DNA of 59,925 nt from an uncultured Oscillospiraceae bacterium (lineage in GTDB: Bacteria; Bacillota; Clostridia; Oscillospirales; Oscillospiraceae), in contig CANRDC010000008.1 of the NCBI GenBank assembly GCA_947629245.1, positions 1-59,925 of the forward strand, read 5' to 3'. Under the pieces are notes generated by a model that saw only the letters and a list, made by a program, of their open reading frames with translations, had not been told where the DNA came from and searched no databases. Within the stretch, counting starts at the first letter, position 1; each line of letters starts with the position of its first letter. A program made the translations under genes and the position numbers. This document shows, one piece after another, positions 7,501-53,298 of this stretch.

Positions 7501-7763
7501 TCCCCAACGATGGCAAGGTCACCATTGGCGACAAGGAGTACACCGCCAAGGGGGAGGGGACAAAGCTCCACGTAGCCGAGGACGGCACCGTGACCCTCAA
7601 GAGCGGCAAGGTAACGCTTGCCGAGGGCACCAACATGACCATGGACGGTGTGACCTACACCGGCGAGGTCACTGTTGAGAAGACCGAGGACGGATACAAA
7701 GCTACCTTTGACGCGAGCAGTACCGGCAGCGTGTCCCCGGTTGTCAAGAATAAATTGAAATAA
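4599..7763 (+). CDS. N-terminal half of giant repeat surface protein, split by prophage
   Basis: 1054 residues from the ATG after AGGAGGAAAGAAAC. A signal peptide is clear: positively charged MKKR, hydrophobic core, likely cleavage after TARA near residue 30. Residues about 31-190 form a non-repeat domain; about 185-215 contain DIYVDPTTGSDGNDGTSKNP as found at the start of beta-helix domains. The rest is degenerate beta-type repeats rich in Gly, Asp, Thr and Val (pattern VTIGxxxYTxxG...GxVTLxxGTVxV). The true gene is interrupted at 7720-7735. The last nine residues (SPVVKNKLK) are largely read from prophage DNA before a TAA. This fragment should be exported but lacks the SLH anchor, which lies in the half at 53294-57931. 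Confidence 0.88.
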   Translation: MKKRLYKLLAFALSVCMVVGLMPALTLTARATDYSGQKITNITRDEYGNITSVTITAKLSGTMVYNGFRFHYCLVVIPDTLTVYTHGTQFYPGNTSEGQNWWNGEEIVKSDDEQRTSGWYTVTLNKPFNPFENKRISIFVRTGDPDVVTSWVSDVGGQFKLIDDNGGGLLPEYYRGRNTGDIYVDPTTGSDGNDGTSKNPVKTLKEAMMRAKATGSTIQVVGGGSVKTAVETGKDVTIKGTDGASFTFTDTKTGDSYNGPEVKIGSDGQVTIGAAEGKTTYTPGSEGDGEHVAHVAYGEAGVKKHDVGVTEGSVDITIEGTDGDATATASVSSSSTGVAIDGVTYTGTTSYNLDDPFGEAPDGTSATVPAKKGPADGFKLEGTSEGGFTVKPGDENTGNITITKGADGAETTVPDGTVKGTVDIPTSGDKVTVSGTEYTAKAENTKLNLVSTSGEPGEDVVELASGAVDVPQGKDVYVNGKKVEATDAAVTVTKDAESGKAEVKIESGKKATIGGVEYTGEATVVLDEEGNASVAKGTVNLPSSEEGAANGETNVDFGDGKSVHVKNEATTEGKDVEVKVPVSGENTNGQATVPQGGSVSINDTVYNVPEGAADGNNIFEFDKDGKVKLTDGAVELDSTNAGGAASSVGFGNTTITDKGDGDGEGKVKVVADGDNATVTVPKGGSVTIGDTTYTNTGDGELELEVDKDGNVTLKSGTVDVPNGGEIKVGDHTYTAGSAGATLTTEDGSEPATLTEGSVILPDGGKVKTKSAGEEVTVSGTEGLEVTAGGAEAEGAKAKVKGKANDSVTVEKGESSHSYALDNDQPKDIESTGTINGLAEALAKGGSTNGSAYGVKRDSAAEGNVYTLTDDAGNITVTADASSKFTYGAQPDDTSVGTYEVPAEKSASLTADQDGNITLTEGTVKVGKGSGESGTLYVEGIDPEKGKISGDGITVTAPGTDSEGADVEVPNDGKVTIGDKEYTAKGEGTKLHVAEDGTVTLKSGKVTLAEGTNMTMDGVTYTGEVTVEKTEDGYKATFDASSTGSVSPVVKNKLK
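7720..7735. repeat. attL core direct repeat
   Basis: GTACCGGCAGCGTGTC, identical to 53283-53298. It lies in frame within the host gene (codons ACC GGC AGC GTG plus TC). The base just outside differs on the two sides (A at 7719, G at 53282), which fixes the 16-bp limit. Confidence 0.85.
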
Positions 7764-7795
7764 AACAGAAAAAATTTTTTCGGTGGCGTAAAATG

Positions 7796-7826
7796 GGGCT
7801 CCTGGCACAGGCCAGGAGCCCTTTTT
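7796..7826 (+). terminator. Rho-independent terminator just inside the prophage left end
   Basis: GGGCTCCTGGC and GCCAGGAGCCC pair perfectly around ACAG and are followed by CTTTTTG on the plus strand. It lies 33 bases after the new stop codon of the truncated host protein, so the prophage supplies both a stop codon and a terminator for the interrupted host transcript. On the minus strand the tail is only CATTTTA, so it may weakly end the transposase transcript too. Confidence 0.75.
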
Positions 7827-7920
7827 GACGGTCTGGGAGCCCCTCCGTGGGCAAAATGGGCGCAAAAAGGACGCCGGGGCAGCGCAGGCCACCCCGGAGG
7901 CCGGTGCGCCTGGCGTCAGC

Positions 7921-8958
7921 TCATGCGGCTATGTATTCTCTCATCAAGGCGCTGGCCGATTTCCACCCCAGCAGCTTGCGGGGATAGTTATTGATCCACT
8001 GCTCCGCCCGGCGGATGGCCTCAATGTCCACCTCATCAAAGTTGGTGCCCTTGGGAAAGAAACGGCGGACCAGGCGGTTGGCGTTCTCATTGCTGCCCCG
8101 CTCATGGGGAGCATAGGGGTGGCAGTAGTAGACGGTGGTGCGCTTGCCCTTGCGGCGGCAGGATTTCTCCATGCCCTTGTAGTCCTGGAACTCACAGCCA
8201 TTGTCCACCGTGATGCTTTTGAACATCTCATAGAACTTGCGACCCATCCGGCGCTCCAGGCCGTTGAGGGCCCGGACCACGCTGGCGGCGGTGTGATCCG
8301 GCACGGGGATAATGATGCAGGCCCTGGTCAGGCGCTCCGTGAGGACCAAGAGGGCCCGCCGGGAGTGCACCTTGCCCATCACGCTGTCCAGCTCCCAGTG
8401 GCCAAAGGTGGAGCGCTCCGCCACCTCTGCCGGGCGGTGCTCAATGCTCTCACCCTTGGGAGGCCGGGCGGCCTTTTTCTTGCCCTTGGATTTCCGCTTG
8501 CTCCGGCGGCCTCTCTCCGGCAGGTGCTCCGGGGTCAGCTTGAGGAAAACGTCCCCACGGTAGATGTAGTTGTAGAGGGTGCTCTCACAGATGTCCGTGT
8601 TAAAGAGGCCCAGCTCCCGGATTTCAGCCAGGACAGCGCCGGGAGAAAAGTGGTCATCCATGATGCGGTGCTCCACATACTCCGCAAAGGCCCGGTCCGT
8701 GCCCAGCTTGAGGTCCGGCCCCTTGGCCCGGAGGTTGTCCTGGTATCTCTGCTCTGCAATCTCCGGGCAGTAGCGCTCCACAAATTCATAGTCAGCCGTC
8801 ATCTGGAGGCACATGCCCCGCTTGATTTCGTTGTAAATGGTGGTGCGGCAGACGCCCAGGGCCTCTGCAATTTTCGTTTTGGGCGTGCCGATCTTGAGCA
8901 TCCGCTCCAGGGTCAGCCGGTCCTCCCAGTCCATTTGATGAAAGCCTTTGTAATTCAT
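7921..8958 (-). CDS. IS30-family DDE transposase, candidate prophage integrase
   Basis: 345 residues, starting at ATG 8958 after GAGGAGGCGCACC. The N-terminal part has the IS30 helix-turn-helix (KIAEALGVCRTTIYNEIKRG). The catalytic domain shows D in HWELDSVMG, D in ITVDNGCEF and E in ERGSNENANRL, with the IS30 ending RRFFPKGTNF. It sits next to attL, downstream of two XRE regulators: the usual seat of an integrase. No tyrosine or serine recombinase is visible elsewhere in the element. No IS30-type terminal inverted repeats are visible in the 56-base gap before it, so it looks like a phage gene rather than an inserted IS. A terminator at 8982-9011 separates it from the XRE gene. Its role in integration is inference. 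Confidence 0.85.
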   Translation of the reverse strand: MNYKGFHQMDWEDRLTLERMLKIGTPKTKIAEALGVCRTTIYNEIKRGMCLQMTADYEFVERYCPEIAEQRYQDNLRAKGPDLKLGTDRAFAEYVEHRIMDDHFSPGAVLAEIRELGLFNTDICESTLYNYIYRGDVFLKLTPEHLPERGRRSKRKSKGKKKAARPPKGESIEHRPAEVAERSTFGHWELDSVMGKVHSRRALLVLTERLTRACIIIPVPDHTAASVVRALNGLERRMGRKFYEMFKSITVDNGCEFQDYKGMEKSCRRKGKRTTVYYCHPYAPHERGSNENANRLVRRFFPKGTNFDEVDIEAIRRAEQWINNYPRKLLGWKSASALMREYIAA

Positions 8959-8981
8959 GGTGCGCCTCCTCAAAAAGTGTA

Positions 8982-9011
8982 AAAGAAAAGGGCGGGGATG
9001 GCTCCCCGCCC
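8982..9011 (-). terminator. Terminator between XRE gene and transposase
   Basis: Read on the minus strand: GGGCGGGGA, loop GCCA, TCCCCGCCC, then TTTTCTTTT. It lies right after the XRE gene stop and about 25 bases before the transposase start, with no room for a full promoter. Transposase expression would need read-through. Confidence 0.75.
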
Positions 9012-9014
9012 ATG

Positions 9015-9254
9015 TCACATGGCTCTGTATCGTGCCAGGAGGGTGACGGCCTCACCATCCGGCAGGATGTCCTCCAGCTTGCAGTGGAGGGTGGTGCAGA
9101 GCTTGAGCATTGTGGCCAAACTGGCTTTGCTGAGGTCTTTAGCCCCCTGCTCATAATACTGGAGCATCCGGGTGTTGATGCCAGCGGCGGTGGCCAGCTC
9201 AGATTGTGACAGGCCGCAAGCCTGGCGGACGTTTTGCAATTTGCTGTTTCTCAT
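9015..9254 (-). CDS. XRE-family helix-turn-helix regulator
   Basis: 79 residues from ATG 9254 after GGAGGAGATGCCCAC; the helix-turn-helix is in LSQSELATAAGINTRMLQYY. Its promoter (-35 TTGACA, -10 TATAAT) encloses a perfect palindrome, strongly suggesting autorepression or control by the neighbouring repressor. It lies between the main repressor and the transposase in the lysogeny module. An excision or lysogeny control role is inferred from this position. Confidence 0.85.
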   Translation of the reverse strand: MRNSKLQNVRQACGLSQSELATAAGINTRMLQYYEQGAKDLSKASLATMLKLCTTLHCKLEDILPDGEAVTLLARYRAM

Positions 9255-9278
9255 GTGGGCATCTCCTCCTTTGCCTCT

Positions 9279-9306
9279 ATTATACACCTTTAGGTGTATA
9301 TGTCAA
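9279..9306 (-). promoter_or_regulatory. XRE promoter with embedded palindromic operator
   Basis: On the minus strand TTGACA (9306-9301), 16-base spacer, TATAAT (9284-9279). The palindrome TATACACCTAAAGGTGTATA (9300-9281) has 9-bp perfect arms, fills the spacer and overlaps the -10. A bound regulator would block polymerase. Confidence 0.85.
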
Positions 9307-9348
9307 GATAAAAAATCAGCGGCCCGCCGGAAATTTTGGGCCGCTGTT

Positions 9349-10484: not shown

Positions 10485-10488
10485 TCTG

Positions 10489-12621: not shown

Positions 12622-13098
12622 TTATTCCTCAGTGTACTCCGCCCAGATGTTGGAGCCGATGCCCGCCCCGCCGGGCTCCCAGGTGTTAGCGTCCACCTGG
12701 GACACCCAGCGCTTGCCATTGTGGGTGACCTTGGCCCCCTTGGCATAGGCGTCATGGGCCCCCACGGGCTGGGACCACTCCGGCCACTCCTCCGCCGGGT
12801 CACTGGTCAGCGCCCACAGGGAGGCCGCCTTGTCCGGCTCCCAGCCGGTCTGGGAGGTGTGCGCCTGCACACAGCGGTAGAGCTTGCCGTTGTAGCGGCG
12901 GAGCTGCCCCACGGTGTAGGCCTCATTGGGGGCCCACTCCGCAAAGAGCAGGGACTGCTCCCCGGCGGTCACATCGTCAATCTGGCCGCCCTCCGCCAGC
13001 ACCACAAAGGCAATGGCGGCGGCATCCTCCCGCTGCTGGATGTACCTGGCCGCCTCATGGATGGACTTGAGGCTCTGGCCCTGATAAATTACGCTCAC
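12622..13098 (-). CDS. Carbohydrate-binding-module phage protein
   Basis: 158 residues, GTG start overlapping the stop of the DGR target gene. Two aromatic-rich modules, EAYTVGQLRRYNGKLYRC and DAYAKGAKVTHNGKRW, resemble CBM5/12 chitin-binding repeats common in tail tip proteins. It probably binds surface glycan at the tail tip. Translational coupling to the DGR-diversified protein suggests that the two work together. Confidence 0.75.
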   Translation of the reverse strand: MSVIYQGQSLKSIHEAARYIQQREDAAAIAFVVLAEGGQIDDVTAGEQSLLFAEWAPNEAYTVGQLRRYNGKLYRCVQAHTSQTGWEPDKAASLWALTSDPAEEWPEWSQPVGAHDAYAKGAKVTHNGKRWVSQVDANTWEPGGAGIGSNIWAEYTEE

Positions 13099-14909
13099 TG
13101 GAAAGCACCTCCGATGTTGTTAATATAGCCGCCCTGGTCAGCGGCCCCCCGGCCCACGGAGAGCTTGAAGTTAAAGGCCCAGCCCTTGGCGGCGGTCTTG
13201 TTCTCAAAGACGTGGTTGGCACCAGATTTGATGTCAGCCGTGGCGTCCTCCCAGGCGGGGGCGTCATCCTTGGCGTTGTTCGTGACCAGCACCTGGAGGT
13301 CAGCGTCCACAGGCAGAGCGCCCACGATCCTGAGCACCATGATGGTGATGTCATCGTCCGCCGTCAGCGGCTCCGCCAGGGTGATAGTGGCCTTGGTGAC
13401 CTTTTTCTCAAAGGTCACGGTGTAGGGCGTGCTGTCCGCCTTGCCGTCATTGGCCACCACCTTGAGAGTGTGGGGGCCGTTGAGGACCTTTTGCCAGTTG
13501 GCGGCGGTCACGGCCTGGAAAGTGTTTTCTCCCCCAAGGCTGGCCTGATAGGAGCGCTGGACCGTCCCGTCCAGATACTCCTTGACCGTCACGGTGTCCT
13601 GGTCCGCATCGGTCACCTTGTATTTGAAGTCAAAGGCGTCCTCCTTGGTGCCCAGGTCGCTCCCGCTGGCCGTGTCGCTGGTGATGACGGGGTAGGCGTT
13701 ATTGTCCACCGTGCGGGCCTCACTGGTGCGCCAGTCGCTGGTGGCGTTGTAGCTGTCATAGGCCCGCACACGGTAGGTCACGGTGTTCCACCCGGCGGTG
13801 ATGGTGTCGGTGTAGGTCAGCGCCGTGCCCTTATAGAGCGGGGTCCAGCCGCCGGTGCCGTCCACCTGCCGCTCCAGCTCATAGCCGCTCAGGTTGTCAT
13901 CACTGTCCACCGCCTGGGTCCAGGAGATGGCCGTGGTGCTGCCGCCACGGACCAGGGCCGGGACGGTGATGGAGCCGGGAGCGCCGGGGGCCCGGTTATT
14001 GATGACCGTGCGGACATCGCTGGTGCACCAGCCGCTCTCAAGGCCCTCCGTGTCTCTGGCCTTGACCCGGTAGCGGACAGACACGGTGCCAAAGGTCACG
14101 GTGTCCGTGGTGGTGGCGGCGGAGCTTTGATAGATTTGGGACCACTGGCTGCCGCCGTCCGTGCTTTTCTCCACAATGTAGCTGGCCAGGTTGCTCTCAG
14201 CGTCCGTGGAGGGGGCCCAGGAGATGGTGATGGTGGTGCCGCCGTTGATGGTGGCGGGGACATTGATGCTGGCAGGTGTAGAGGGGGCGGTGTTCTTGAA
14301 CACAGAGCCGTCATCGCTCACCATGAGGGAGGAGGAGAGAGTGAAAGCGGGGCGGGACCCGTAGGTGCTGTCGCAGTAGTTGCCGCTGACATTGCCATTG
14401 GAATTCAAGTAAACGGCGTAGTTGGTGTAGTCCGTGTACGGGGAGCGGGTCCATTGGACATCTGCACTGCCGTTGTACTTGGCAATCTGGAGGTCAGCGG
14501 CCTTGGGGAGCGCCGTGCCCTCCTTGTTAAACCAGCTTTCCGTCTTGCCCAGCTCCGTGGCGGACAGGGCAAAGACGGCCCGCTTGAGGGTGGTGACGGT
14601 GGTGTTGCCGTTGCCGGGGGTGTAGTAGAAAGTGGTCTGTCCCATGTCCGTCTGGATCACCGGGTCCAGCAGCGCCTTATAGGTGCTGTTAAACCATTTG
14701 TCCAGGTCACAGGTGGCATAGGCGTTGACGTTGGTGGCGTGCCAGACACGCTTGTCATAGATGTCCTTGCGGACCACCAGAGTGCGCCCCGTGCCGTTGA
14801 GGCTGCTCTCGTAGTTATGTTGGGCCACATAGAACTCCACCAGCGTGCCGCCCTCTTTGAGCTTGACGGTGCTGCCGATGGCCTTGCTGCCCAGGGTAGA
14901 TGTTGCCAT
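13095..14909 (-). CDS. DGR variable target protein 1, tail adhesin with FnIII repeats
   Basis: 604 residues from ATG 14909, which overlaps the RT stop (TAATG) after AAAGGAGGTCATC. The N-terminal 200 residues form a DUF6273/C-type-lectin-like module holding the variable region at residues 155-188 (TNYAVYLNSNGNVSGNYC...). After it come at least two fibronectin type III repeats (TISWAPSTDAESNLASYIVE; AISWTQAVDSDDNLSGYELE), then a beta-rich C-terminal domain. The VR is thus internal, not C-terminal as in most DGR targets. It lies with the tail fibre and baseplate genes and is the probable receptor-binding protein. Confidence 0.85.
   Translation of the reverse strand: MATSTLGSKAIGSTVKLKEGGTLVEFYVAQHNYESSLNGTGRTLVVRKDIYDKRVWHATNVNAYATCDLDKWFNSTYKALLDPVIQTDMGQTTFYYTPGNGNTTVTTLKRAVFALSATELGKTESWFNKEGTALPKAADLQIAKYNGSADVQWTRSPYTDYTNYAVYLNSNGNVSGNYCDSTYGSRPAFTLSSSLMVSDDGSVFKNTAPSTPASINVPATINGGTTITISWAPSTDAESNLASYIVEKSTDGGSQWSQIYQSSAATTTDTVTFGTVSVRYRVKARDTEGLESGWCTSDVRTVINNRAPGAPGSITVPALVRGGSTTAISWTQAVDSDDNLSGYELERQVDGTGGWTPLYKGTALTYTDTITAGWNTVTYRVRAYDSYNATSDWRTSEARTVDNNAYPVITSDTASGSDLGTKEDAFDFKYKVTDADQDTVTVKEYLDGTVQRSYQASLGGENTFQAVTAANWQKVLNGPHTLKVVANDGKADSTPYTVTFEKKVTKATITLAEPLTADDDITIMVLRIVGALPVDADLQVLVTNNAKDDAPAWEDATADIKSGANHVFENKTAAKGWAFNFKLSVGRGAADQGGYINNIGGAFQ
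14346..14445 (-). repeat. DGR variable repeat 1 (VR1)
   Basis: 100 bp aligning without gaps to TR 16180-16279. There are 11 differences, every one at an A of the TR coding (minus) strand. The GC-rich end (GGGTCCCGCCCCGCT on the minus strand) is unchanged and acts as the initiation-of-homology block; it is followed by TTC here and by CTG in TR. Confidence 0.95.
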
Positions 14910-15934
14910 TAGATGACCTCCTTTAGAATGTTTTGAACACGGTCCCGCACTTGCTGGCGCAGGGTCCAAGTGTTGCCATGAGCGGCGTGGGCATCCCACG
15001 CTTGCCAGGATTGCAGGATTTCCTCACGGGTCACCAGGCCCAGAGGGTAGTCCCGCTCCCAGCGCCGGAGCTTGGCCCGCATCCGCTTGATGCTGCTATG
15101 CCGCAGCTTGCGGATGACCTGGCCGCTCTCCGTGATGTAGGTGTGAAAGCCAAGAAAGTCAATCCCGTTGCGCAAGGGGAAAATCTGGGTTTTCTCATTG
15201 AGCTCCAGGCCCAGGTCTGCCATATACGCCCGGATTTCCCGGAGGCAGTATTGCAGGTAGTCCTTGTCTGGGCAGATGAGGAAAAAGTCATCCATGTAGC
15301 GGCCATAGTAGCGGATGCGGAGCTTTTCCTTGACAAAGTGGTCAAACTCATCCAGAAACAGGAGCGCAAAGAGCTGGGAGGTCTGATAGCCCAGCGGCAG
15401 GCCGTCTGAGCAGTCGATGTAGACACAGAGCAGGTCATAAACAATGGGCTCAAGGCACAGCTTTTGGAGCTTGGCCTTGAGCCTGTCGTGGTCTATGCTT
15501 GCAAAGAAGTGGCGCACATCACACTTGAGGACCCAGCCCTCCGTGGTGCGGTATTTCCTCCAGTAGTCGATGAAAAAGCCCCGGAGCCGGTCCAGGCCAA
15601 AGTGGAGGCCCTTGCCCTTTTGGGATGCGTAGTTATCCAAAATAAAGCTCCGGGTGATCCGCTCATAGAGGAGGTTGTCCACAATAGCGTGCTGGACCAC
15701 CTTGTCCACAAACGCCGGAGCCTGCACCAGCCTTTTCTTGGGCTCAAAGACATAGAACACACGGAAAAGGCCGGGGCGGTATATCTTGGTTTTCAGAATA
15801 TAAATCAGGTTGACGATGTTCTCCAGCAGATGCACCTCATAGTGGGCGGTGGCAGCTCTGGAGCGCTTACCTCTCCTGGCGGCAAGGTAGGCCTTGTATA
15901 GCACCGCAAAGGTGCAGATTTGCAGAAAAGTCAA
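14909..15934 (-). CDS. DGR reverse transcriptase
   Basis: 341 residues with a TTG start preceded by AGGAGGCCACCCGC. Catalytic aspartates lie in KCDVRHFFASID (near 139) and in YMDD (near 213-216). LPLGYQTSQLFA carries the SQ motif typical of DGR reverse transcriptases, and a C-terminal thumb region follows. It copies the TR RNA with adenine-specific errors; the cDNA replaces VR sequence in target genes. It lies between TR and target 1, transcribed in the same direction. Confidence 0.95.
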   Translation of the reverse strand: MTFLQICTFAVLYKAYLAARRGKRSRAATAHYEVHLLENIVNLIYILKTKIYRPGLFRVFYVFEPKKRLVQAPAFVDKVVQHAIVDNLLYERITRSFILDNYASQKGKGLHFGLDRLRGFFIDYWRKYRTTEGWVLKCDVRHFFASIDHDRLKAKLQKLCLEPIVYDLLCVYIDCSDGLPLGYQTSQLFALLFLDEFDHFVKEKLRIRYYGRYMDDFFLICPDKDYLQYCLREIRAYMADLGLELNEKTQIFPLRNGIDFLGFHTYITESGQVIRKLRHSSIKRMRAKLRRWERDYPLGLVTREEILQSWQAWDAHAAHGNTWTLRQQVRDRVQNILKEVI

Positions 15935-38933: not shown

Positions 38934-38973
38934 CGCTTGCCTCCGTTTCCGGGGCGCTCGTTTTCGGGCCATT

Positions 38974-41978: not shown

Positions 41979-41989
41979 GGTGTCCTCCT

Positions 41990-44783: not shown

Positions 44784-44796
44784 GCGGGTCCTCCTA

Positions 44797-45024
44797 TCAG
44801 TTGATTTTTCCAGTGGAAAAAAGGGTGTTGTCCGGGTGAAAGCCATGCCGGGCAAGGTAGCGCTCCGCCTGCATCTCCTGGGTAAAGGTGCGGCTCTTGC
44901 GGCGCTGCCTGTCACGCCCCAGGACCACGGTGGAGCCAATGCCCTTGATGACCCACTGAAACTTGCCGTGCTTGGTGACGCCGTTGTAGTAGACAGCCTC
45001 ACCCTTGTCATTTGCCATGCGCAT
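44797..45024 (-). CDS. Small phage protein, unknown
   Basis: 75 residues from ATG 45024 (AAGGAGGCAAAGACC at 8-base spacing); a second ATG at 45018 is possible. Contains KFQWVIKGIGSTVVLGRDRQ and FTQEMQAERYLARHGF; resembles small basic phage proteins next to polymerases. Function unknown. Confidence 0.65.
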   Translation of the reverse strand: MRMANDKGEAVYYNGVTKHGKFQWVIKGIGSTVVLGRDRQRRKSRTFTQEMQAERYLARHGFHPDNTLFSTGKIN

Positions 45025-45041
45025 GGTCTTTGCCTCCTTGG

Positions 45042-47030
45042 TCAGTCTTTTCTAAAGAATTTCCCCACCCAGCCGTCAGCATTGAGGGGCAGGTCCGGGG
45101 CCCAGGGGATGGGCTGGCGCATGATCTCACAGACGGTGGCCAGCATGGTGTCATCATCCGCCCAGGGCTTGATGTCCACCACCACCTCATCATGTATGTG
45201 GAACACCACCGGCAGCCCGGCGGCCTCCAGGCGGTCAATGGCCCCGGCCAGGGCGTCACGGGCGATGGCCTGCACCACGTTCTCCACTAGCTTGCCCCCA
45301 TAGGTTTCAATCTGTTTCCAGCGCTTGGTTTTCTGGTCCATGCCCATGTAGGCAATGGAGGGGCGGCCCCATTCATTCTGGCCAATGCTGGGGCTCACAT
45401 AGTAGAGCTTGCGGCCAGAGGGGAGCAGGATGGTGAAACAGTCCACGCCCTGGTTATAGTCAAACTCACGGGAGAGGAGCAGGCCATTGAGGCCCACGCT
45501 GCCGCCCTCCGTGATGACCTGCACAGCGGCGTTGTCCATGCTATACCACAGGTCACGGATGCGCTTGTTGGCCTCCCGCCAGCGGGTCACGATGTCCGGC
45601 AGGTCCTCCTCCGGGATGCCCATGTCCAGGGCCCCCATGTTGATGAGGGCCCCGGTGCTGCCCTGGTAGCCCAGGGCCAGCTCCGCCACCTTGCCCTTTT
45701 GCCGGAGGGAATACTCCGGGTTGCCCTTTTTGATGAGCTCAATGGGCACCCCAAACATCTGGGAGGCGGATGCCTCATAAATCTTGCCATGGGTGCGGAA
45801 CACCTCAAGCCGCCACTGCTCTCCGGCCAGCCATGAGATGACACGGGCCTCTATGGCGGAAAAGTCAGCGTCAATGAGGACGTGCCCCTCCGGGGCCACA
45901 AAGGCCGTGCGGATGAGCTGGCTGAGGGTGTCAGGCACGGAGCCATAGATGGCCTTGAGGGCGTCCAGCTTGCGGTCACGGACCAGCTCACGGGCCAGGG
46001 CCAGGGGCTCAGTGTAGGTGCGGGGGAGGTTTTGGACCTGGACCAGACGCCCGGCCCATCTGCCGGTGCGGTTGGCCCCATAGAACTGGAGCAGGCCCCG
46101 GACCCGGCCATCCGGGCACACAGCGGCCTCTATGGCGTCATATTTCTTGGTGGAGGTCTTGCCCAGCTCCTGCCGGATTTCCAGCATCCGGCGGACGTGG
46201 GGGCTGTTGCCGTCCTTATTGAGCAGCCGGGCCACGGTGTCCTTGCGCAGGTCACCCAGCTCCTCACCCATCTCCTCCTCCAGCCAGCGGGTGAGCTGGC
46301 CCACGCTGTTTGGGTTGTCCAGCTTGGAGAGGGCGGTGGCCTCCTGCATCAAGCTCTTGCGCACGGTGTCCCCCAGGTAGAGGGCCCCCTGCACAAAGTC
46401 CATGTCCACGGCCACGCCACGGGCATTGATGATGAGGTCAATCTCCCATTGCCTCTGCACCCAGTCCGGCACGGGGAAAGCGGAGAGCCTCCGCTCAATC
46501 TCCATCTCTGTCACCATGTCCTGGGCGTTGTACTCCTTGAAAAGCTGCCATTTGGCGGGGTCATGCTGGGGGAGGTTGCGGGTGCGGCCCCCGTTGGCCT
46601 TGGAGGGGGCGCAGGGGGTGCAGAAATAGCGGATCAGGGCCTTGCCGGTGTTGAGCTTGCGCTTGTCCTCTGCCAGCCCCAGGGCCTTGCCGGTGGCGTC
46701 CAGGCCTGCCGTGTAGCCGCAGTAAAGCCCATGGAACATGGTGCACCGCCACTGCTCCGGCGGCAGCCAGCCCAGAAACTTGGACAGGCAGCCCCACTCA
46801 AAGGGGGCGTTGTATGCGTGCTTGATGTAGTCTGGAGAGGTGAGGGCCTGGACAAGCCACGGGGGCAAGTGCTCCCCCGTGGCTATGTCAATGACTTGGA
46901 CCGGGGCACCATCCAGACTGTACCCAAAGAGCAGGATGGCAAAGTCCGGGGAGGATATATACTTTTGAGCCCCGGCCTTTGCGATGGGTACGCTTGAAAA
47001 AGTCTCAAGGTCAATGCTGAGGTGGTGCAT
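45042..47030 (-). CDS. Phage DNA polymerase, family A
   Basis: 662 residues. The N-terminal DnaQ-like exonuclease has DLETF. The polymerase domain has motif A IDADFSAIEARV, motif B in RQKGKVAELALGYQGSTGA, and motif C VFHIHDEVVVD. AGGAGGACACC precedes the ATG. It replicates phage DNA with the VapE primase-helicase and the DUF2815 protein encoded just upstream in transcription. Confidence 0.94.
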   Translation of the reverse strand: MHHLSIDLETFSSVPIAKAGAQKYISSPDFAILLFGYSLDGAPVQVIDIATGEHLPPWLVQALTSPDYIKHAYNAPFEWGCLSKFLGWLPPEQWRCTMFHGLYCGYTAGLDATGKALGLAEDKRKLNTGKALIRYFCTPCAPSKANGGRTRNLPQHDPAKWQLFKEYNAQDMVTEMEIERRLSAFPVPDWVQRQWEIDLIINARGVAVDMDFVQGALYLGDTVRKSLMQEATALSKLDNPNSVGQLTRWLEEEMGEELGDLRKDTVARLLNKDGNSPHVRRMLEIRQELGKTSTKKYDAIEAAVCPDGRVRGLLQFYGANRTGRWAGRLVQVQNLPRTYTEPLALARELVRDRKLDALKAIYGSVPDTLSQLIRTAFVAPEGHVLIDADFSAIEARVISWLAGEQWRLEVFRTHGKIYEASASQMFGVPIELIKKGNPEYSLRQKGKVAELALGYQGSTGALINMGALDMGIPEEDLPDIVTRWREANKRIRDLWYSMDNAAVQVITEGGSVGLNGLLLSREFDYNQGVDCFTILLPSGRKLYYVSPSIGQNEWGRPSIAYMGMDQKTKRWKQIETYGGKLVENVVQAIARDALAGAIDRLEAAGLPVVFHIHDEVVVDIKPWADDDTMLATVCEIMRQPIPWAPDLPLNADGWVGKFFRKD

Positions 47031-47042
47031 GGTGTCCTCCTA

Positions 47043-47771
47043 TCACATGGGCAGGCCGGTGATGGGGTTGATGCCGTTGTTCACGGCCCAGGGAGGGCTC
47101 CCAGCGCCCGCAGGAGCGGCGGCAGGGGCCACAGGAGTGGTGGGGTAGGCACCGGCCACGGGGGCCGCAGAGGGGGCACCGTAGGCCACAGGAGCGCCGG
47201 GGACAGCGGGGTTGGTGGCGGGCATGGCGCCGATCCCGGCAAAGTCAGAGGCAGCGGAGGCGGTGCCAGCCAGGGGCTCCCCGTCACGGGTCTTGAGGAC
47301 GTTGCCCAGGCCACAGCCCACGCCCTTGTTGCCGCTGTTGGAGTAGCCAAAAAAGCGGATGGTGACACGGGCATACATGCCACTGTAAATGTCCGCCGGG
47401 GAGAGCTCACAGGTGATGTTGTCGATGCCCACCACCTGGGGCTTGTTCTTGGTGCTGGCGGTCATCACCCAGTGGCCCTTGCACTCATCGCCAAAGGGCA
47501 CGCCGGAGGGGCGCACACCGTCCCCGTCATAGATGGGCACCCGGAGCATGGGGGGCCGGGCACCGTTCCACACCTTGCTCACGGCGTCATTGGCGGCGGA
47601 CTGGATGGCGGCGTCAATGTCAGCCTTGGTGGCCACGTCCGTCTTGGGGATGAGCAGGGTGACGGAGTATTTGGGCTCCCCGCCGGGCTGGGCGGCCCTG
47701 GGGGTGGTCAGGTTGGCATAGGACAGGCGGACCTCACCGGTCAGCACTTTCATGGGGTCATTCTGATACAT
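47043..47771 (-). CDS. DUF2815 ssDNA-binding protein
   Basis: 242 residues, beginning MYQNDPMKVLTGEVRLSYAN, with KYSVTLLIPKTDVATKADID and RFFGYSNSGNKGVGCGLGNV, matching DUF2815, an OB-fold single-strand-binding replacement in Firmicutes phages. The last 70 residues are Pro/Ala/Gly-rich and end GINPITGLPM, like an SSB interaction tail. Confidence 0.9.
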   Translation of the reverse strand: MYQNDPMKVLTGEVRLSYANLTTPRAAQPGGEPKYSVTLLIPKTDVATKADIDAAIQSAANDAVSKVWNGARPPMLRVPIYDGDGVRPSGVPFGDECKGHWVMTASTKNKPQVVGIDNITCELSPADIYSGMYARVTIRFFGYSNSGNKGVGCGLGNVLKTRDGEPLAGTASAASDFAGIGAMPATNPAVPGAPVAYGAPSAAPVAGAYPTTPVAPAAAPAGAGSPPWAVNNGINPITGLPM

Positions 47772-47787
47772 TGCAGTAATCTCCTTT

Positions 47788-48198
47788 TCATAAATTCATT
47801 TGGTGTTTAGTATCAATCCAGAGCTCCTGGATTTTCACCCATTTGTCATGGAGGGCCTTGGAGCGCTTGACGGCGCTGGTGAGCTCCTCATTGTGGGCCT
47901 TGACGGCAGCGGCGGCCTCAATCTCCTTGCGGGTCCGCCGCCGGGCGGGCTTTTCGATGAGCCGCCAGCCGTCTTGGTATTCCTTGGAGGCCTTGGTCCA
48001 GGCCTCCTTGCTCTCCGCCACCTGGTCCTCAAGGAACTGCCCCACGGTGTGGATGGCCTCCTCATTCTCACTGGCCCAGCCGGGGTGGAGAGCGATGCGG
48101 AAAATTTTGTTGATGTTCTTGAGGGGCAGGATGTGGAGCTGGGGCAGGCAGAGGTGGAGGTGATAGTCCCCCTGCTGGATGTGCACCGTGTCCATCAT
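47788..48198 (-). CDS. Phage protein, unknown
   Basis: 136 residues. Histidine-rich start MMDTVHIQQGDYHLHLCLPQ, then a long charged helical region (RRTRKEIEAAAAVKAHNEEL). It overlaps the DUF2800 gene by 4 bases and precedes DUF2815, so it belongs to the replication cluster. No family recognised. Confidence 0.7.
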   Translation of the reverse strand: MMDTVHIQQGDYHLHLCLPQLHILPLKNINKIFRIALHPGWASENEEAIHTVGQFLEDQVAESKEAWTKASKEYQDGWRLIEKPARRRTRKEIEAAAAVKAHNEELTSAVKRSKALHDKWVKIQELWIDTKHQMNL

Positions 48199-49430
48199 GT
48201 GGTGGCCACCCCGGCAAAGTCAGTGGCGGCGGGGTTGTAGGGCTCCCGCTTGTCAGTGGCCAGGGCCAGCGTGGGCTTGCCCAGGGGCTTAAAGACAAAG
48301 CTGCCGATCTTGGCCGCAAACTCCGCCTTGCCCATGAGTTTCTCCAGCTCAGAGAGGCTCTTGGGCTTGCGGTCATACACCAGGGCCTCATCATAGCCAG
48401 CCTCAATGATGGCCTTGAGGGCGGCATCCTGGTCCGTAAAGGTGCGGTTGCTCCGGCCCGCCACCAGTTTCCAGCCCTCAATGGGCTTGCCATCCAGCAG
48501 GGTCTTGGTGGCGTATTCCTCCAGGTCTTTGTACCACTGGAGGAGATGCTGGCCACGGATCAGGAGCTCACCCACCTCCGCATCTGAGAGGAGCGGGTGG
48601 ACCATATTGCCATGGGGGCCGATGTGCCCCGCCTCCTGGGGGACCAGCTCCCCCGGCTGGACCGTGCCAAGGGGCACACAGTCCTTGAAGTCCTCCAGGG
48701 CGGTGTTGATGTTGGCACGGGCCCGGCACTGGGCTTTGCCCCGGCAAAAGCGGCAGTGGTCACCGGGGACAAACTCCCCCAGGCCTGCATAGGCCTTTTG
48801 GGCGATGGGCCGCACGCTGTCACCCCATGCCAGCAGCTCTGCCACGGTCACCTCATCGGTGGTGTAGCTGTCAAGGCGGGGCTGGTCAATGGACATGCGG
48901 ACCCGCTTGATGGTGTCCCCAAAAATGGGGGCGTAGCGCTTGAGAGCGCCCAGGGCATAGAGCCGCATCTGGGGGTTGCCCACGGCGGACACGGGGACGC
49001 CCTTGCCGTGCTTGTAGTCCACGATGTTGAGCACGTCACCGCCGATGATGCAGCAGTCACAGGTGCCAAAGCCCTCCGGCACATACTCAGAAAAATCCAC
49101 CTTGACCTCCACCGCAATGGTGGGGGTGGTGTCATAGCTCATCACGATCTCATCAATGTGCTCCAGGTAGAGGTCAGAGGTCTTGTCCATCTCCGGGGAG
49201 TAGAGGGGGTCCTTTTTGAGCTTATTGAGCCGGGTGGTGTAGGAGCGGGAGCTCATGGTGGTGGATTTCTTGAGCACCTTGAGCTCACAGATGGCGTGGG
49301 CCAGGCGGCCCTCCTCCGCATAGTCACTGGTGCGCTCCGGCAGCCCCTCCTCAAAGCGGGGGGCCGCCGTGCACTTGAGCCAGCGGGAGGCGGAGCTTGC
49401 GGAAAGCAAGGCGTGTTTCTCAGGAGGCAT
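48195..49430 (-). CDS. DUF2800 PD-(D/E)xK exonuclease (Cas4/RecB-like)
   Basis: 411 residues, beginning MPPEKHALLSASSASRWLKC as DUF2800 does. The nuclease core includes LNIVDYKHGKG with the catalytic Asp and Lys, and CRFCRGKAQCRA gives a Cys cluster like the Fe-S site of Cas4/AddB nucleases. It likely provides recombination or end processing with DUF2815. Confidence 0.9.
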   Translation of the reverse strand: MPPEKHALLSASSASRWLKCTAAPRFEEGLPERTSDYAEEGRLAHAICELKVLKKSTTMSSRSYTTRLNKLKKDPLYSPEMDKTSDLYLEHIDEIVMSYDTTPTIAVEVKVDFSEYVPEGFGTCDCCIIGGDVLNIVDYKHGKGVPVSAVGNPQMRLYALGALKRYAPIFGDTIKRVRMSIDQPRLDSYTTDEVTVAELLAWGDSVRPIAQKAYAGLGEFVPGDHCRFCRGKAQCRARANINTALEDFKDCVPLGTVQPGELVPQEAGHIGPHGNMVHPLLSDAEVGELLIRGQHLLQWYKDLEEYATKTLLDGKPIEGWKLVAGRSNRTFTDQDAALKAIIEAGYDEALVYDRKPKSLSELEKLMGKAEFAAKIGSFVFKPLGKPTLALATDKREPYNPAATDFAGVATT

Positions 49431-49442
49431 GGGGCACCTCCA

Positions 49443-49985
49443 TCAAATCTGAGCGCCCAGGGCCCGGAGCTCAGTGGCAAAGGTGCCATACTGGGTGGGC
49501 TGGAGCTGGGTGACAGCGGCGATGCCATACTTGCCCAGCAGGGCCAGCAGGGCGTCCATCTTGCCCATGTCCACCAGGGCGGCACCGGCACGGGCGATCT
49601 GGTCCAGGGTGTAGGCGGGCGGCGTGGCCGTGGGCACGGCGGGGGCCGGGTTAGAATGGGAGGCAGCAGTCTCCGGGGCAGGCGTGGGGGCCTGGGGCGT
49701 CACAGGGGCAGGGGTAGGGACTGCCGCAGGGGCAGGGGTAGGGTTTACCACAGGCACCGGCGTGGGGGCCACAGGAGCCGCAGGAGCGGCGGGAGCGGGG
49801 CCGGGCATGGTGGTGGGCACCGGGGACACGGGAGCCGCCTGGGGCACCACAGGGGCCGCAGGAGCGGCAGAGGGCCGGGGCATGTCCGGCGTGAGGATGG
49901 TGGGGTCCACAGCGATGGCGTCAGCCAGCTTGGAGATGGCGGCGGCCAGGTCCGGGACCTCAATCTTGATTTTCATTTCCAGCAT
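49443..49985 (-). CDS. Pro/Ala-rich phage protein, unknown
   Basis: 180 residues from ATG 49985 after GGAGGATTATAGCA. A short N-terminal domain (MLEMKIKIEVPDLAAAISKL) and a C-terminal helical domain (YTLDQIARAGAALVDMGKMD) flank about 90 residues of low-complexity Pro-Ala-Val-Thr. Both end domains resemble small single-strand-binding accessory proteins, but I cannot assign a function. Confidence 0.72.
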   Translation of the reverse strand: MLEMKIKIEVPDLAAAISKLADAIAVDPTILTPDMPRPSAAPAAPVVPQAAPVSPVPTTMPGPAPAAPAAPVAPTPVPVVNPTPAPAAVPTPAPVTPQAPTPAPETAASHSNPAPAVPTATPPAYTLDQIARAGAALVDMGKMDALLALLGKYGIAAVTQLQPTQYGTFATELRALGAQI

Positions 49986-50082
49986 TGCTATAATCCTCCT
50001 TGGTATCGGTTTCTTGGCAGTCGCAGCGCTCTCCGGGGTCAAGGTGAGCGCCACAGTGGGGACAGGTGCGGTAGTAGGGCAT
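49960..50082 (-). CDS. 40-residue zinc-ribbon phage protein
   Basis: Starts MPYYRTCPHCGAHLDPGERC and ends in NENQD. Two CxxC/CxC sites (CPHC and CDC) suggest one zinc. GGAGGATTGAGACA precedes the ATG, and it overlaps the next gene's start by 26 bases. Small zinc ribbons of this type are common in phage early operons. Confidence 0.7.
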   Translation of the reverse strand: MPYYRTCPHCGAHLDPGERCDCQETDTKEDYSNAGNENQD

Positions 50083-50086
50083 TGTC

Positions 50087-50782
50087 TCAATCCTCCAAAA
50101 TGCTTGTCCAGCGTTCAAAGGCCTCCATCACTTTGCGGGAGTGCTCTGTCTGGTAGATGCCAGCGTCCCAAAGCCTCCGGGCACCCGTGGGGCCGTTATT
50201 GTAGGCCATCACGGCCAGCTCCGGGTCCCCGTAGGCCTCAAGCTGCTGACCTATCATGTAGACACCGGCCTCAATGTTTCCGGCGTAGGTGAGCGGGTCC
50301 ATGCCCAGGTCCTTGAGCCAGGCGTGATTGATTTTGTTGATCTGCATGAGGCCATAGTCATTGGTGGAGCTCTGGGCATCCGGGTCAAAATGGCTTTCCA
50401 CCTCCGCAATGGCCAGCGCCAGCGCATAGGGCACGTTGTAGCGCTCACAGCAGTCCTGCATGATGTCCTGGAGCTCATAGCTCAGGAGCCGCCCCTCACT
50501 CACGATGTCATCACGATGCCGGACCGGCTCCGGGGTGCTCTCAGGTGCAAGCTGGGAGCCCTCTGGGGCCGGTGCCTCACTCTGGGGCACCGTGGACACG
50601 GTGGGGTCTGCCGGGGCCGCAGGGGGCTCCACAGAGGGCCCAGCGGCAAAGATGCGGCCCACCAGGCACCCCACCAGACAGCCGATGAGGAAAGCGGTGC
50701 CCAGGAGCACCAGGAGAGCGGTGAGCCGCTCCCGTGCCTGGCGTTGACGTGTACGCCGGGCGTCAATTCCTTGGGCGGTCAT
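50087..50782 (-). CDS. Membrane-anchored lytic transglycosylase (SLT)
   Basis: 231 residues: a basic N-terminus, one membrane helix (about 20-48), a Pro/Glu-rich linker, then an SLT domain with catalytic Glu in AIAEVESHFDP, GLMQINK and MAYNNGPTG. The domain would face the cell wall. It lies in the early region, not the tail or lysis genes, and 2 bases from the second DGR target, so it may act in the lysogen or early in infection. Confidence 0.9.
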   Translation of the reverse strand: MTAQGIDARRTRQRQARERLTALLVLLGTAFLIGCLVGCLVGRIFAAGPSVEPPAAPADPTVSTVPQSEAPAPEGSQLAPESTPEPVRHRDDIVSEGRLLSYELQDIMQDCCERYNVPYALALAIAEVESHFDPDAQSSTNDYGLMQINKINHAWLKDLGMDPLTYAGNIEAGVYMIGQQLEAYGDPELAVMAYNNGPTGARRLWDAGIYQTEHSRKVMEAFERWTSILED

Positions 50783-50784
50783 GG

Positions 50785-51399
50785 TCAGGCCTCGCCGGTT
50801 GACACCCGGCGGCGGATTTCGTCCAGCATCTCTCTGATGGAGAACTGGGCCAGGGCCTTGGTGATCTCCTCCGGCTGGATGCCGTCAAGCTCAACGGAGT
50901 GGTGGGAGGAAATGAGGAAAGCGGGGCGGGACCCGTAGGTGTAGCCGCAGTAGCCGTTGTAGACATCGCCATCGGAATTCAAGCCCGCCACCCATTCGTC
51001 ATCATCGTCCACCTCTGGGGTGCTCCAGGGGGTGGCCAGCCACTCCCAGCTCTCCGGCTTGGGCAGGATGGCGTGGTACTTGCGGACCTCATCCAGGGTG
51101 AGCGGGGCGGCCTTGCACTTGCAAAAGCCATATTGCTTGCTGCCGTTGACGGCGGTGAGGTCCACGATGCGGGGCAGGACCTCCTCCGGGTGGTTTTCGG
51201 TCAGGGCCTCCAGCCAGGGGCCGTTGAGGTGGTCCATGAGGGTGCTCTTGGCAAAGTCATTGTCCGTGCCAAAGGGCTTTTGGACCTGATTGGTGGCCAG
51301 GAGCAGGGTGCCGTCCGTGCGGTGCTCCAGCACCAGGCAGGGCTCCCCGTGGAACTTGATGAGCTGGCCGGGGGCGGCGCTCAAAACAGGGGTTTTCAT
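50785..51399 (-). CDS. DGR variable target protein 2 (remote)
   Basis: 204 residues from ATG 51399 after AAAGGAGGATCACCGC. DUF6273-like N-terminal part (GQLIKFHGEPCLVLEHRTDG, NGSKQYGFCKCKAAP) leads to the variable region at about residues 139-160 (GLNSDGDVYNGYCGYTYGSR), then about 44 helical residues. The variable block is homologous to that of target 1 but there are no FnIII repeats and no signal peptide. It lies 35 kb from the RT, in the early region next to a lytic transglycosylase. Confidence 0.85.
   Translation of the reverse strand: MKTPVLSAAPGQLIKFHGEPCLVLEHRTDGTLLLATNQVQKPFGTDNDFAKSTLMDHLNGPWLEALTENHPEEVLPRIVDLTAVNGSKQYGFCKCKAAPLTLDEVRKYHAILPKPESWEWLATPWSTPEVDDDDEWVAGLNSDGDVYNGYCGYTYGSRPAFLISSHHSVELDGIQPEEITKALAQFSIREMLDEIRRRVSTGEA
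50920..50983 (-). repeat. DGR variable repeat 2 (VR2)
   Basis: 64 bp aligning to TR 16180-16243. There are 10 differences, all at TR adenines of the coding strand. Past 50983 the sequence no longer matches TR. The GC-rich initiation block is identical to VR1, and both VRs read GCTTTC where TR reads GCTCTG. Confidence 0.93.
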
Positions 51400-51418
51400 G
51401 CGGTGATCCTCCTTTGTG

Positions 51419-51619
51419 TTAATCATCCAGGTCATCCGGCGGCTCAATGTCAATGAGGTTTTCCGCCTGGGTGATGATTTCAGAAACGATGTAGCGGATG
51501 GACAGGCCCGTCTTGGCTTTCAAGCGGCGGACCACTTTCTCCGCCTCCGGGCTGAGGCGTACAACGCCCAGGCACTCATTGGAGACGGCAGGGGCCTTGA
51601 GGACAATGGGGTTGCTCAT
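51419..51619 (-). CDS. Small ribbon-helix-helix-type protein
   Basis: 66 residues: CLGVVRLSPEAEKVVRRLKA followed by TGLSIRYIVSEIITQAENLI, the strand-helix-helix pattern of Arc/CopG-type DNA-binding proteins. GGAGGAAATCACCCT precedes the ATG. A regulator of the early operon is likely. Confidence 0.72.
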   Translation of the reverse strand: MSNPIVLKAPAVSNECLGVVRLSPEAEKVVRRLKAKTGLSIRYIVSEIITQAENLIDIEPPDDLDD

Positions 51620-51663
51620 AGGGTGATTTCCTCCTTTGGTTAGATGGAAGTGATGCGGGTGGT

Positions 51664-51912
51664 TTATGCCCCGGCAGCCTTGCGCCCCCTCCGCTCAAAG
51701 GCCTGCTGGACCCTGAGCTGGGCCAGGTCAGCATCATAGCGCAGGCGCTTATTGGGGAGCCTGGTGCCGTCCCGTCCTCTTTTGAGCTCCGTGTATAGGC
51801 TTGAAAGCGGCCAGGCCACCGTGTTTGCAATGTCCTTGACGGCGGTGCCAGCCTCCCACAGCCCTTGGATTTTCAGCCGGTCCGCATGGGAGCGGATGGT
51901 GTAGTCTGCCAT
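51664..51912 (-). CDS. Small helix-turn-helix protein
   Basis: 82 residues from ATG 51912 after AAGGAGGTGAAACCA. HADRLKIQGLWEAGTAVKDI followed by ANTVAWPLSSLYTELKRG is an HTH resembling the N-terminal domain of IS30 transposases, including the family-like xxLYxELKRG end. A small DNA-binding regulator or excision-directing partner of the IS30-like transposase is a possible reading (inference). Confidence 0.7.
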   Translation of the reverse strand: MADYTIRSHADRLKIQGLWEAGTAVKDIANTVAWPLSSLYTELKRGRDGTRLPNKRLRYDADLAQLRVQQAFERRGRKAAGA

Positions 51913-51976
51913 TGGTTTCACCTCCTTGTAGCAGGCATAGGTGGTATATGCACAAGCGGCAGGGCCGCATTGTGAC

Positions 51977-52522
51977 CTAATTGGTGGGCGGTCCGGGCTT
52001 GTAGCGCTTGAACTCCTCATAGAGCTCTTGCCGCCGGGCCTCCGTGATAAAGTCAAGCTGCCGGGCCAGGTCCAGGGCTCCGATGTGGGACCAGTACCAG
52101 GCCAGCTTGGCCTCCGGGCTCTTGGCCCGTCCGATCTCCCGCACGGCCTCCTCTTTCATGGAGGCAAGGCGCTTTTCCACGTCCAGGTCCATGTCTTTCC
52201 AGGAGGCCCCGCAGGTGGGGCAGTAGGTAAAGGGCGGGGTGAAAGTCCCGCAGACGGGGCACAGCTCCCCGTCCTCAATGGGGTAGAGGTCCACGGTGTC
52301 ACCCGCCGGGGGCTCATCCAGGTCATAGAGCCCATTGCCGCCCACCGTGCTCTCAGAGCAGTTGAGCAGGATGGCGTAGTGATTGCACCAGCGCTGGCCG
52401 TCCGCATAGCGGAGGGCCTCCTCAACCTCTCCCAGGGTGAGCTGGCCACGGGCCTTGGACACACGGACCATAATGGTGTCATGCCGGTCATAGGCGTGCT
52501 CAATCTTAATGCCACGTTTCAT
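51977..52522 (-). CDS. Zinc-ribbon phage protein, unknown
   Basis: 181 residues with CPVCGTFTPPFTYCPTCGAS, a double CxxC zinc ribbon, in the middle. The N-terminal part has QRWCNHYAILLNCSES and the C-terminal part is helical. It belongs to the early operon with GAGGACGCC before the ATG. Function unknown. Confidence 0.7.
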   Translation of the reverse strand: MKRGIKIEHAYDRHDTIMVRVSKARGQLTLGEVEEALRYADGQRWCNHYAILLNCSESTVGGNGLYDLDEPPAGDTVDLYPIEDGELCPVCGTFTPPFTYCPTCGASWKDMDLDVEKRLASMKEEAVREIGRAKSPEAKLAWYWSHIGALDLARQLDFITEARRQELYEEFKRYKPGPPTN

Positions 52523-52567
52523 GGCGTCCTCCTTGGTGCCCTCGTTACCTCCGGGGCGGGCCGGTTA

Positions 52568-53194
52568 TTATCTGTACTGGGCACACAAGAGGCCGCAGAT
52601 GGAGGTGGGCAGGTCAAAGGGGATGCCCCGGAGCTCATTCACCTTGTCAATCATGGCGGTGATGCCCGCCAGCATCCAGACATCCACGTCCTGGGCCGCA
52701 TCGGTGAGGATTTCCACAGCACGGATGGTGTCTTTCATGCAGTCCATCATCACCTTGGCGTTGTTCTCAGCGGTGCACACCATCATCTTGAGCTCCCCGG
52801 AGGGGTTGGCCTGCATGGCCTTGACGGCGGCATCCTCCTTGGCCTTGTTCTCCAGCTCCTTGACATACTCCACGGTGTAGTAGTAGGTCAGGCGCTGGAG
52901 CCGCTTGGCCACGTCCTGGCGCTGCTCCATGGTGGCCTCACTCTCCTGCTCCTTGGGCTCCTCAGTGGCCTCCGCAGCGGGCTCCTCAATCCACACGTTG
53001 ATGGTCTTGCCGTTGCTCAGGTTGACCTCCAGGCGGTTGCCCAGGTCACAGATGTAGTCATAGTAGTGGCCGTCTGCCGTGCTCCGGTAGATGGGGTAGC
53101 CCGCCCGGCTGGTGCTGCTGAGGTCCTGCTCATAGTCAGTGGGGAAAATCTTGTTGACCTCATTCCAGGCCTGCTCTTTACTGGTGACTGTCAT
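52568..53194 (-). CDS. First gene of the leftward early operon, unknown
   Basis: 208 residues; N-terminal TVTSKEQAWNEVNKIFPTDY and SNGKTINVWIEE, a Glu-rich linker (EEPAAEATEEPKEQESEAT), then a helical C-terminus with KLMQANPSG-type and VMMDCMKDTIRAVEILTDAA sequence. CAAGGAGGGCTCCAAA precedes the ATG. It is the gene nearest attR, so it is likely expressed first after induction. Family not recognised. Confidence 0.72.
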   Translation of the reverse strand: MTVTSKEQAWNEVNKIFPTDYEQDLSSTSRAGYPIYRSTADGHYYDYICDLGNRLEVNLSNGKTINVWIEEPAAEATEEPKEQESEATMEQRQDVAKRLQRLTYYYTVEYVKELENKAKEDAAVKAMQANPSGELKMMVCTAENNAKVMMDCMKDTIRAVEILTDAAQDVDVWMLAGITAMIDKVNELRGIPFDLPTSICGLLCAQYR

Positions 53195-53217
53195 TTTGGA
53201 GCCCTCCTTGGTGGTAT

Positions 53218-53269
53218 AAAAAAATTGAGTTGAACGGTGGAAAGCTGTCGCTTTCCGTGTTCAACTCAA
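53218..53269 (-). terminator. Terminator at the prophage right end
   Basis: On the minus strand TTGAGTTGAACACGGAAAGC folds on its complement across a GACA loop and is followed by seven T. It stands between the attachment site and the first early gene, blocking minus-strand transcription entering from the host side. In the excised circle it blocks read-through from the lysogeny module. Confidence 0.8.
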
Positions 53270-53282
53270 TTATAGTGGGCAG

Positions 53283-53298
53283 GTACCGGCAGCGTGTC
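53283..53298. repeat. attR core direct repeat
   Basis: GTACCGGCAGCGTGTC, identical to 7720-7735, and in the same reading phase of the split host gene. An in-frame TAG at 53273-53275 lies just upstream within prophage DNA. Confidence 0.85.

Follow-up and report, generated by a model that had tools for sequence, protein, structure and literature searches.

Locus organization

The stretch analyzed here, called the window, comprises 59,925 nucleotides (positions 1 to 59,925 of contig CANRDC010000008.1, assembly GCA_947629245.1) from an uncultured bacterium of the family Oscillospiraceae. It contains a gene for a giant surface protein with S-layer homology (SLH) domains, interrupted by a prophage of 45,547 bases that lies between two copies of a short direct repeat. 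An earlier sequence-only reading had taken the repeat for a 16-bp attachment (att) core and the arrangement for a phage-controlled gene switch. Here we describe the locus and compare it with related elements; the insertion is real and, instead of a switch, the locus looks like that of a family of phages that transpose, duplicate a long stretch of target and carry a promoter apparently cut by integration. The features at the two ends of the prophage are:

4599..7735, + strand, N-terminal half of the giant surface-protein gene, including the left repeat copy (signal-peptide-like start, repetitive body)
7720..7735, no strand, left repeat copy, read as a target-site duplication, best as 15 bp (7721-7735) plus one chance base (repeat comparison)
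7736..7765, - strand, left phage tip, with TTGACA (-35 half) at 7747-7742, 6 nt inside the tip (tip comparison)
7796..7826, + strand, terminator-like hairpin at the left end, facing incoming host transcription (folding)
53218..53269, - strand, terminator-like hairpin with U-tract, its 5' foot starting in the -10/start region (folding)
53269..53283, - strand, right phage tip (ending at 53282 or 53283, a one-base ambiguity), with TATAAT (-10 half) at 53274-53269, 8-9 nt inside the tip (tip comparison)
53283..53298, no strand, right repeat copy, read as a target-site duplication (15-bp reading 53284-53298; repeat comparison)
53299..57931, + strand, C-terminal half of the split gene, carrying three SLH domains; no export signal seen (domain scan)

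The N-terminal half begins at the ATG at 4599 with what by eye resembles a signal peptide and ends at a stop codon (7761-7763) on phage DNA; the C-terminal half is open from 53276 to 57931. As the sequence-only reading had stated, exact copies of the 16-mer stand at both junctions (7720-7735 and 53283-53298) in the same codon phase; they are the only two in the window, even with up to two mismatches allowed (0.05 expected). When the halves were joined by script, a single frame of 2628 codons from 4485, stop included, was obtained, equal to 2589 amino acids from ATG 4599, so that the claim of one frame reaching from there to the three SLH domains at 57931 was confirmed. With the low-complexity filter off, a segment of 116 residues across the join matches an internal repeat of this protein (34.5%, E 6e-6). 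Because this join-crossing segment aligns with the internal repeat, the two halves were probably contiguous, as a single SLH gene of 2589 codons, split by the prophage as had been proposed.

A search of related genomes for the intact gene, suggested with the sequence-only reading, yielded no uninterrupted ortholog and only distant relatives among the matches listed (genus search, 35 genomes, i.e., the host's own and 34 others). In a comparison of five giant open reading frames (ORFs; three stretches, two genomes), the common part was only joined residues ~1928-2347; blastp without composition correction and filter gave long alignments spanning the join, which were reduced to that part when both were switched on.

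Integration gene

Only one integration gene was found in the phage. It is preceded by a small regulator of the helix-turn-helix (HTH) type:

7921..9018, - strand, IS30-like DDE transposase, phrog_4646 (PHROGs and Pfam)
9015..9287, - strand, small Cro/C1-type HTH regulator, upstream of the transposase gene and overlapping it by 4 bases (domain scan)
9279..9306, - strand, promoter-like site of the HTH-transposase operon, TTGACA-16-TATAAT, 12/12, with a palindrome in the spacer by eye (consensus scan)

The transposase was assigned to phrog_4646 with an E-value of 4.9e-119. It passed the Pfam cut-off for HTH_38 (29.5 bits, cut-off 27), and its match to rve (29.6 bits, E 8.8e-7) lay under the cut-off of 32.6. 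A comparison with the PDB gave no convincing relative (best E 0.16). The protein is 52% identical to that of phage nd12, 49% to that of phage nd4 and 48% to that of Faecalibacterium phage FP_Lagaffe (hereafter Lagaffe). Neither Phage_integrase (PF00589) nor Resolvase (PF00239) was matched on this contig at E <= 0.01; the same scans of the rest of the genome returned 15 and 8 matches, respectively.

Target-site duplication

Past the transposase gene, the relatives on nine contigs (L016, L017, L018, L020, L021, L041, L044, L047 and L065) are conserved up to TTGAC[A/T] and about six further bases and then continue into unrelated DNA. Of 14 candidate insertions, counting that of the window, 11 have a direct repeat abutting the phage tips. 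Its length is 15-17 bp (15 bp in six insertions, 16 bp in the window, G050 and G268, and 17 bp in G124 and G433), all 11 repeat sequences are different from one another, and neither a fixed target motif among the 11 targets nor a fixed att site among the scorable insertions was seen. The other three insertions were not scorable: the contigs of G349:C44 and G349:C75 start within the element, and G369:C2 has no recognisable left tip, its DNA-binding-protein match being 70 kb off. In G253:C42 the left flank also matches the phage interior over 15 bases, away from the tips. Among the 11 targets, three have a strong hairpin fold (z below -3.5), and that of the window does not (z -0.06). The 16-mer of the window is absent from the tips of the related phages compared, with up to three mismatches allowed; three-mismatch matches away from the tips occur in L014, L018, L019, L020, L037 and L041.

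A plain insertion sequence (IS) of 1278 bp (L200-L204), whose transposase is 36% identical, has duplications of 13-14 bp at five of five copies. Taken with the 15-17 bp of the phages, these repeats show that this IS30-like branch makes long duplications. On this comparison the repeat in the window is a target-site duplication and not an att core, most likely of 15 bp with one additional base that matches by chance. A duplicated target stands in one reading phase at both junctions as a matter of course, so the phase carries no information on regulation.

The host genome contains a second element (L180, G000:C56) of ~6 kb between 15-bp repeats. It has tips of the same kind, with genes for the DNA-binding protein, the HTH regulator and the transposase, and would be a remnant or a satellite, since it is too short for a full phage.

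Circle junctions

Tip-to-tip junctions were available as sequenced DNA from 11 relatives (L012, L061, G435, Lagaffe, G440, G149, nd12, MT837638, nd4, Dulem34 and MT835543), and a 15-bp insert between the joined tips was present in none of them. Comparison of lysogens with free forms gave the order left tip, ~2 nt, right tip. The 2-nt spacing was seen in nd12/MT837638, nd4/MT835922, Dulem34/G253:C1 and G149. The near-identical phages nd12 and MT837638 differ at one position of the 17-bp spacer, which falls inside the 2-nt coupling; nd4 has its left tip in common with MT835922, in which this tip runs into other DNA; and the right tip of Dulem34 and the outermost bases of its left tip recur in the lysogen G253:C1. 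In G149 (L166, 1380-1760) a right lysogen end is followed by an N gap and then by a tip-to-tip junction, and both lysogen ends are in the assembly, an arrangement that may represent a tandem prophage or a mixed circular form. The 2 nt of its junction are identical to the final two bases of the right flank, a match that is weak alone because the flank is an A-run.

For an out-of-sample test, ~330 bases past the transposase match were inspected in 14 phage records. An intact junction was present in five (nd12, MT837638, nd4, Dulem34 and MT835543). MT835922 has the left tip described above, MT836490 ends in a left-tip-like motif without a -10, and no tip was found in MT839279, MT836832, MT839862, MT839311 and MT837900, where inspection started from the point at which the protein match ends. 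The remaining two records, L194 and L195 (filamentous bajarodino viruses 74 and 13), are inoviruses with a related transposase and a different sequence behind the gene.

IS30 itself copies out a circle whose ends are joined with a 2-bp spacing and carry the promoter Pjunc; the donor is left unaltered, and excision that precisely regenerates the target is not reported (PMC9333248). Since the circle junctions of the relatives lack the repeat, circularisation of the phage would not rejoin the giant gene. By analogy, clean repair of that gene by the phage's own enzyme is not expected; recombination between the short repeats could restore it, presumably rarely. The giant gene looks broken rather than switchable.

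Tips, predicted promoter and predicted terminators

In the prophage, TTGACA at the left tip and TATAAT at the right tip lie 45 kb apart on the same strand. When the tips of the window phage are joined via 2 nt, a consensus promoter (12/12) with a 17-bp spacer is predicted, facing the early genes. Across the sequenced junctions the -10 element scored best at a spacer of 17 in nine of 11, with a mean of 4.55 of 6 at this spacing, compared with 3.18 at the next best (21) and 1.62 (standard deviation 0.49) at spacers of 27-59. Among the junctions predicted from lysogen ends, 8/11 were best at 17. In the lysogen, the early strand between 36000 and 53320 shows three promoter-like matches, all of 9/12 and none higher, the one nearest to the tip being at 50110. 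The joined tips would form a putative sigma-70 promoter. At the circle junctions of ISs, fusion promoters that drive the transposase have been described (PMC7780238); from the layout, the junction described here would drive the phage early genes and not the transposase.

Terminal inverted repeats, compared in 18 elements, are strong in Lagaffe (22/28), G433, G253:C42 and nd4. A search with the right-tip protein in viral contigs gave 10 candidates, none of which was confirmed.

The left-end hairpin (7796-7826), which the sequence-only reading had named together with the phage-borne stop codon, folds strongly (-27.4 kcal/mol, z -6.1), in keeping with that claim, and was not listed by a consensus scan. 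The right-end hairpin would have its full stem (-27.3 kcal/mol) in RNA reading through from the host; RNA started at the junction would lack nine of the 20 pairs, at the foot of the stem (-14.3 kcal/mol). The 22 junction sequences that were folded represent 21 distinct elements, and in every one the foot is found 3-13 nt upstream from where transcription is predicted to start. A null test, run without MT837638 and the second G149 row, found hairpins of this kind in 20 of 20 elements and in 13 of 1000 shuffles. By eye, the outer stems vary in sequence among the elements and keep their complementarity. The right-end hairpin is predicted to act as a one-way terminator.

Interpretation and alternatives

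The following explanation is proposed. A temperate phage of 45.5 kb with a contractile tail and a diversity-generating retroelement (DGR), similar to Lagaffe, would have transposed into a 2589-codon SLH gene by means of its IS30-like DDE transposase, with duplication of 15 bp of target. As for IS30, a phage circle would be copied out with ~2 nt of flank, and the host gene would not be restored. Joining of the tips would build a sigma-70 promoter from the -35 of the left tip and the -10 of the right tip, 17 bp apart, which, in the circle alone, would drive the early genes. A terminator with its 5' foot in this promoter would halt RNA entering from the host and let junction-started RNA pass, so that the early genes of the prophage would be kept silent until circularisation. 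We assign this whole explanation (IS30-like transposition, copied-out circle, junction promoter and one-way terminator) a probability of about 0.8. Comparison of the related elements shows the positions of the tips, the long duplication, the change of its sequence from site to site and the ~2-nt circle junctions of the relatives; copy-out by the window phage itself is proposed by analogy.

Several observations weigh against this explanation. Typical IS30 members duplicate 2 bp (PMC5821093), compared with 15-17 bp in the 11 insertions, and the target step therefore differs from that of typical members. The circle junction of the window phage is absent from its own assembly (0 matches) and is for this reason a predicted one. 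The inverted repeat of the window is weak (13/28, reached by 29 of 500 shuffles), and those of G406:C9 and G268 are at chance level. With regard to spacing, Lagaffe ties at 16 and 17, Dulem34 scores 3 at 17 and 4 at 18, and the predicted junctions of G050 and G253:C1 are best at 18 and that of G253:C42 at 15. The statistics on spacing and hairpins were taken over related elements with shared ancestry, the hairpin thresholds were chosen once the data had been seen, and the U-tract rule was changed after its first version had taken inner T-runs in G050 and G406:C5 and missed the stems. The shortened RNAs of G149, G124, G253:C1, G268 and G000:C56 retain base pairing near the U-tract, for which reason the effect of the hairpin may be partial in these elements. 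Loss of the element is not impossible either, since IS30 dimers can lose one copy (PMC9333248) and ISApl1 copies are lost from donors by deletion (PMC5821093).

Site-specific integration at the 16-bp core, with reversible precise excision switching the giant gene on in the manner of comK or sigK, would account for the in-phase repeat and the intact joined frame. It is very improbable: neither class of integrase occurs on the contig, the repeat is different at each scorable insertion and is missing from the 11 sequenced circle junctions of the relatives, and precise excision is not reported for IS30 (PMC9333248). The 16-mer was rejected as an att core on the same grounds, and with no fixed site seen and no site-specific recombinase found on the contig the proposed gene switch is not supported either. 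Induction of a lytic phage would, in addition, kill the cell. Ordinary IS30-like transposition, in which the tip hexamers are parts of the inverted repeats bound by the transposase and the early genes run from another promoter, is a more serious candidate, as the -35 and -10 lie within terminal repeats that are strong in Lagaffe and several other elements; the preference for a spacing of 17 in both sequenced and predicted junctions, the perfect consensus predicted in the window and an early strand without a match above 9/12 make it unlikely. A chimera, in which a phage contig was misjoined to host contigs, could be suspected in a fragmented assembly (146 contigs, 87% completeness), but both joins lie exactly at the tips, the repeat has the length found at ten other insertions, and these are spread over eight assemblies or records, among which is the host's own genome; such an artefact has next to no probability.

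A broader version of the preferred explanation, the phage with a junction promoter and one-way terminator, is more tentative, with odds somewhat short of even. According to it, lysis and lysogeny would be set by DNA shape across a widespread phage class: the early promoter would exist only with the ends joined, a directional terminator inside it would block host transcription and not its own, and silence would come from a cut promoter rather than mainly from a repressor. Among the matches listed in a literature search, neither a junction promoter nor an overlapping terminator in IS30-type phages was found in titles or abstract openings.

Phage gene content and neighbouring genes

The DNA between the repeats encodes head, portal, terminase, contractile tail, lysis and replication genes, which were assigned with PHROGs on 40 minus-strand ORFs; two plus-strand ORFs were searched with Pfam, without a match. 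The traits of the Lagaffe type (tail sheath, baseplate wedge, reverse transcriptase, Avd, template and variable repeats, transposase) are present. Further features are:

13095..14999, - strand, DGR target gene, with the variable repeat at 14346-14445 (profile search and repeat comparison)
14909..15934, - strand, DGR reverse transcriptase (profile search)
16180..16279, - strand, DGR template repeat, 89% to the variable repeat (repeat comparison)
16335..16895, - strand, DGR accessory protein Avd (profile search)
36476..53194, - strand, early/replication block: HTH DNA-binding protein, exonuclease, single-stranded DNA-binding protein, DNA polymerase, methyltransferase, thymidylate synthase, primase-helicase, endonuclease, helicase, regulator and several unknowns (PHROGs)
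51664..52056, - strand, DNA-binding protein akin to the N-terminal HTH of the transposase, without its catalytic domain, phrog_11420 (profile search)

By eye, all differences between template and variable repeat are located at T on the plus strand, i.e., at A on the minus strand; since every difference falls on a template adenine, the DGR target gene appears to have been diversified. The HTH protein at 51664-52056 is a candidate for binding to the tips and for control of the junction promoter. An Rfam scan at gathering scores gave no match, and a tRNA scan found none. Directly 3' of the giant SLH gene, at 58016-59148, a gene similar to colicin-DNase/WHH nucleases and a SUKH-type gene were observed, which look like an interbacterial toxin-immunity pair.

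Comparison with known systems

In the comK (Listeria) and sigK (Bacillus) switches, a prophage-type element likewise splits a host gene. Those elements use large serine recombinases, a fixed site and precise excision, whereas no such recombinase was found here. The supposed surface-protein switch is replaced by a testable rule for a prophage family, which states where the ends lie, how the target is duplicated and why the prophage is possibly quiet.

IS30 of E. coli and other copy-out/paste-in elements share with the window phage the DDE transposase; their tips are joined via 2 nt, as in the relatives of the phage, and they have a fusion promoter at the junction, as is predicted for the phage (PMC9333248, PMC7780238). 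In contrast to IS30, the phage duplicates 15 bp instead of 2, its cargo is a 45-kb phage, and its predicted promoter points away from the transposase and into the early genes. Long duplications in an IS30-type element are also known from IS1630 of Mycoplasma fermentans, where four of the seven copies are flanked by 16, 23, 25 and 26 bp (PMC3317919); this element differs in being a simple IS with variable duplication length, whereas the phage family is constant at 15-17 bp.

Among phages, nd12 and nd4 (GenBank records, of which ~4 kb each were compared) have an IS30-like transposase with an intact tip-to-tip junction right behind it. Lagaffe (Lagaffevirus) resembles the window phage in being of the myovirus type, with ~48 kb, a DGR with Avd, direct repeats at the ends and no classical integrase reported (PMC5883640), and in having an HTH regulator beside the IS30-type transposase and the junction between transposase and HTH DNA-binding protein; the identity of only 48% between the transposases sets the two apart. 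The authors of Lagaffe noted an IS30-type integrase and, "more surprisingly", the end direct repeats; they are not known to have read these as a target duplication, and the word "promoter" does not occur in the main text (PMC5883640). Neither mitomycin C nor peroxide nor bile salts raised the virion numbers of Lagaffe (PMC5883640). If the overlap of promoter and terminator is true, it would constitute a compact one-way insulator, and a start site used only in the circle would mark induction directly, at the molecular level, in Lagaffe and similar phages.

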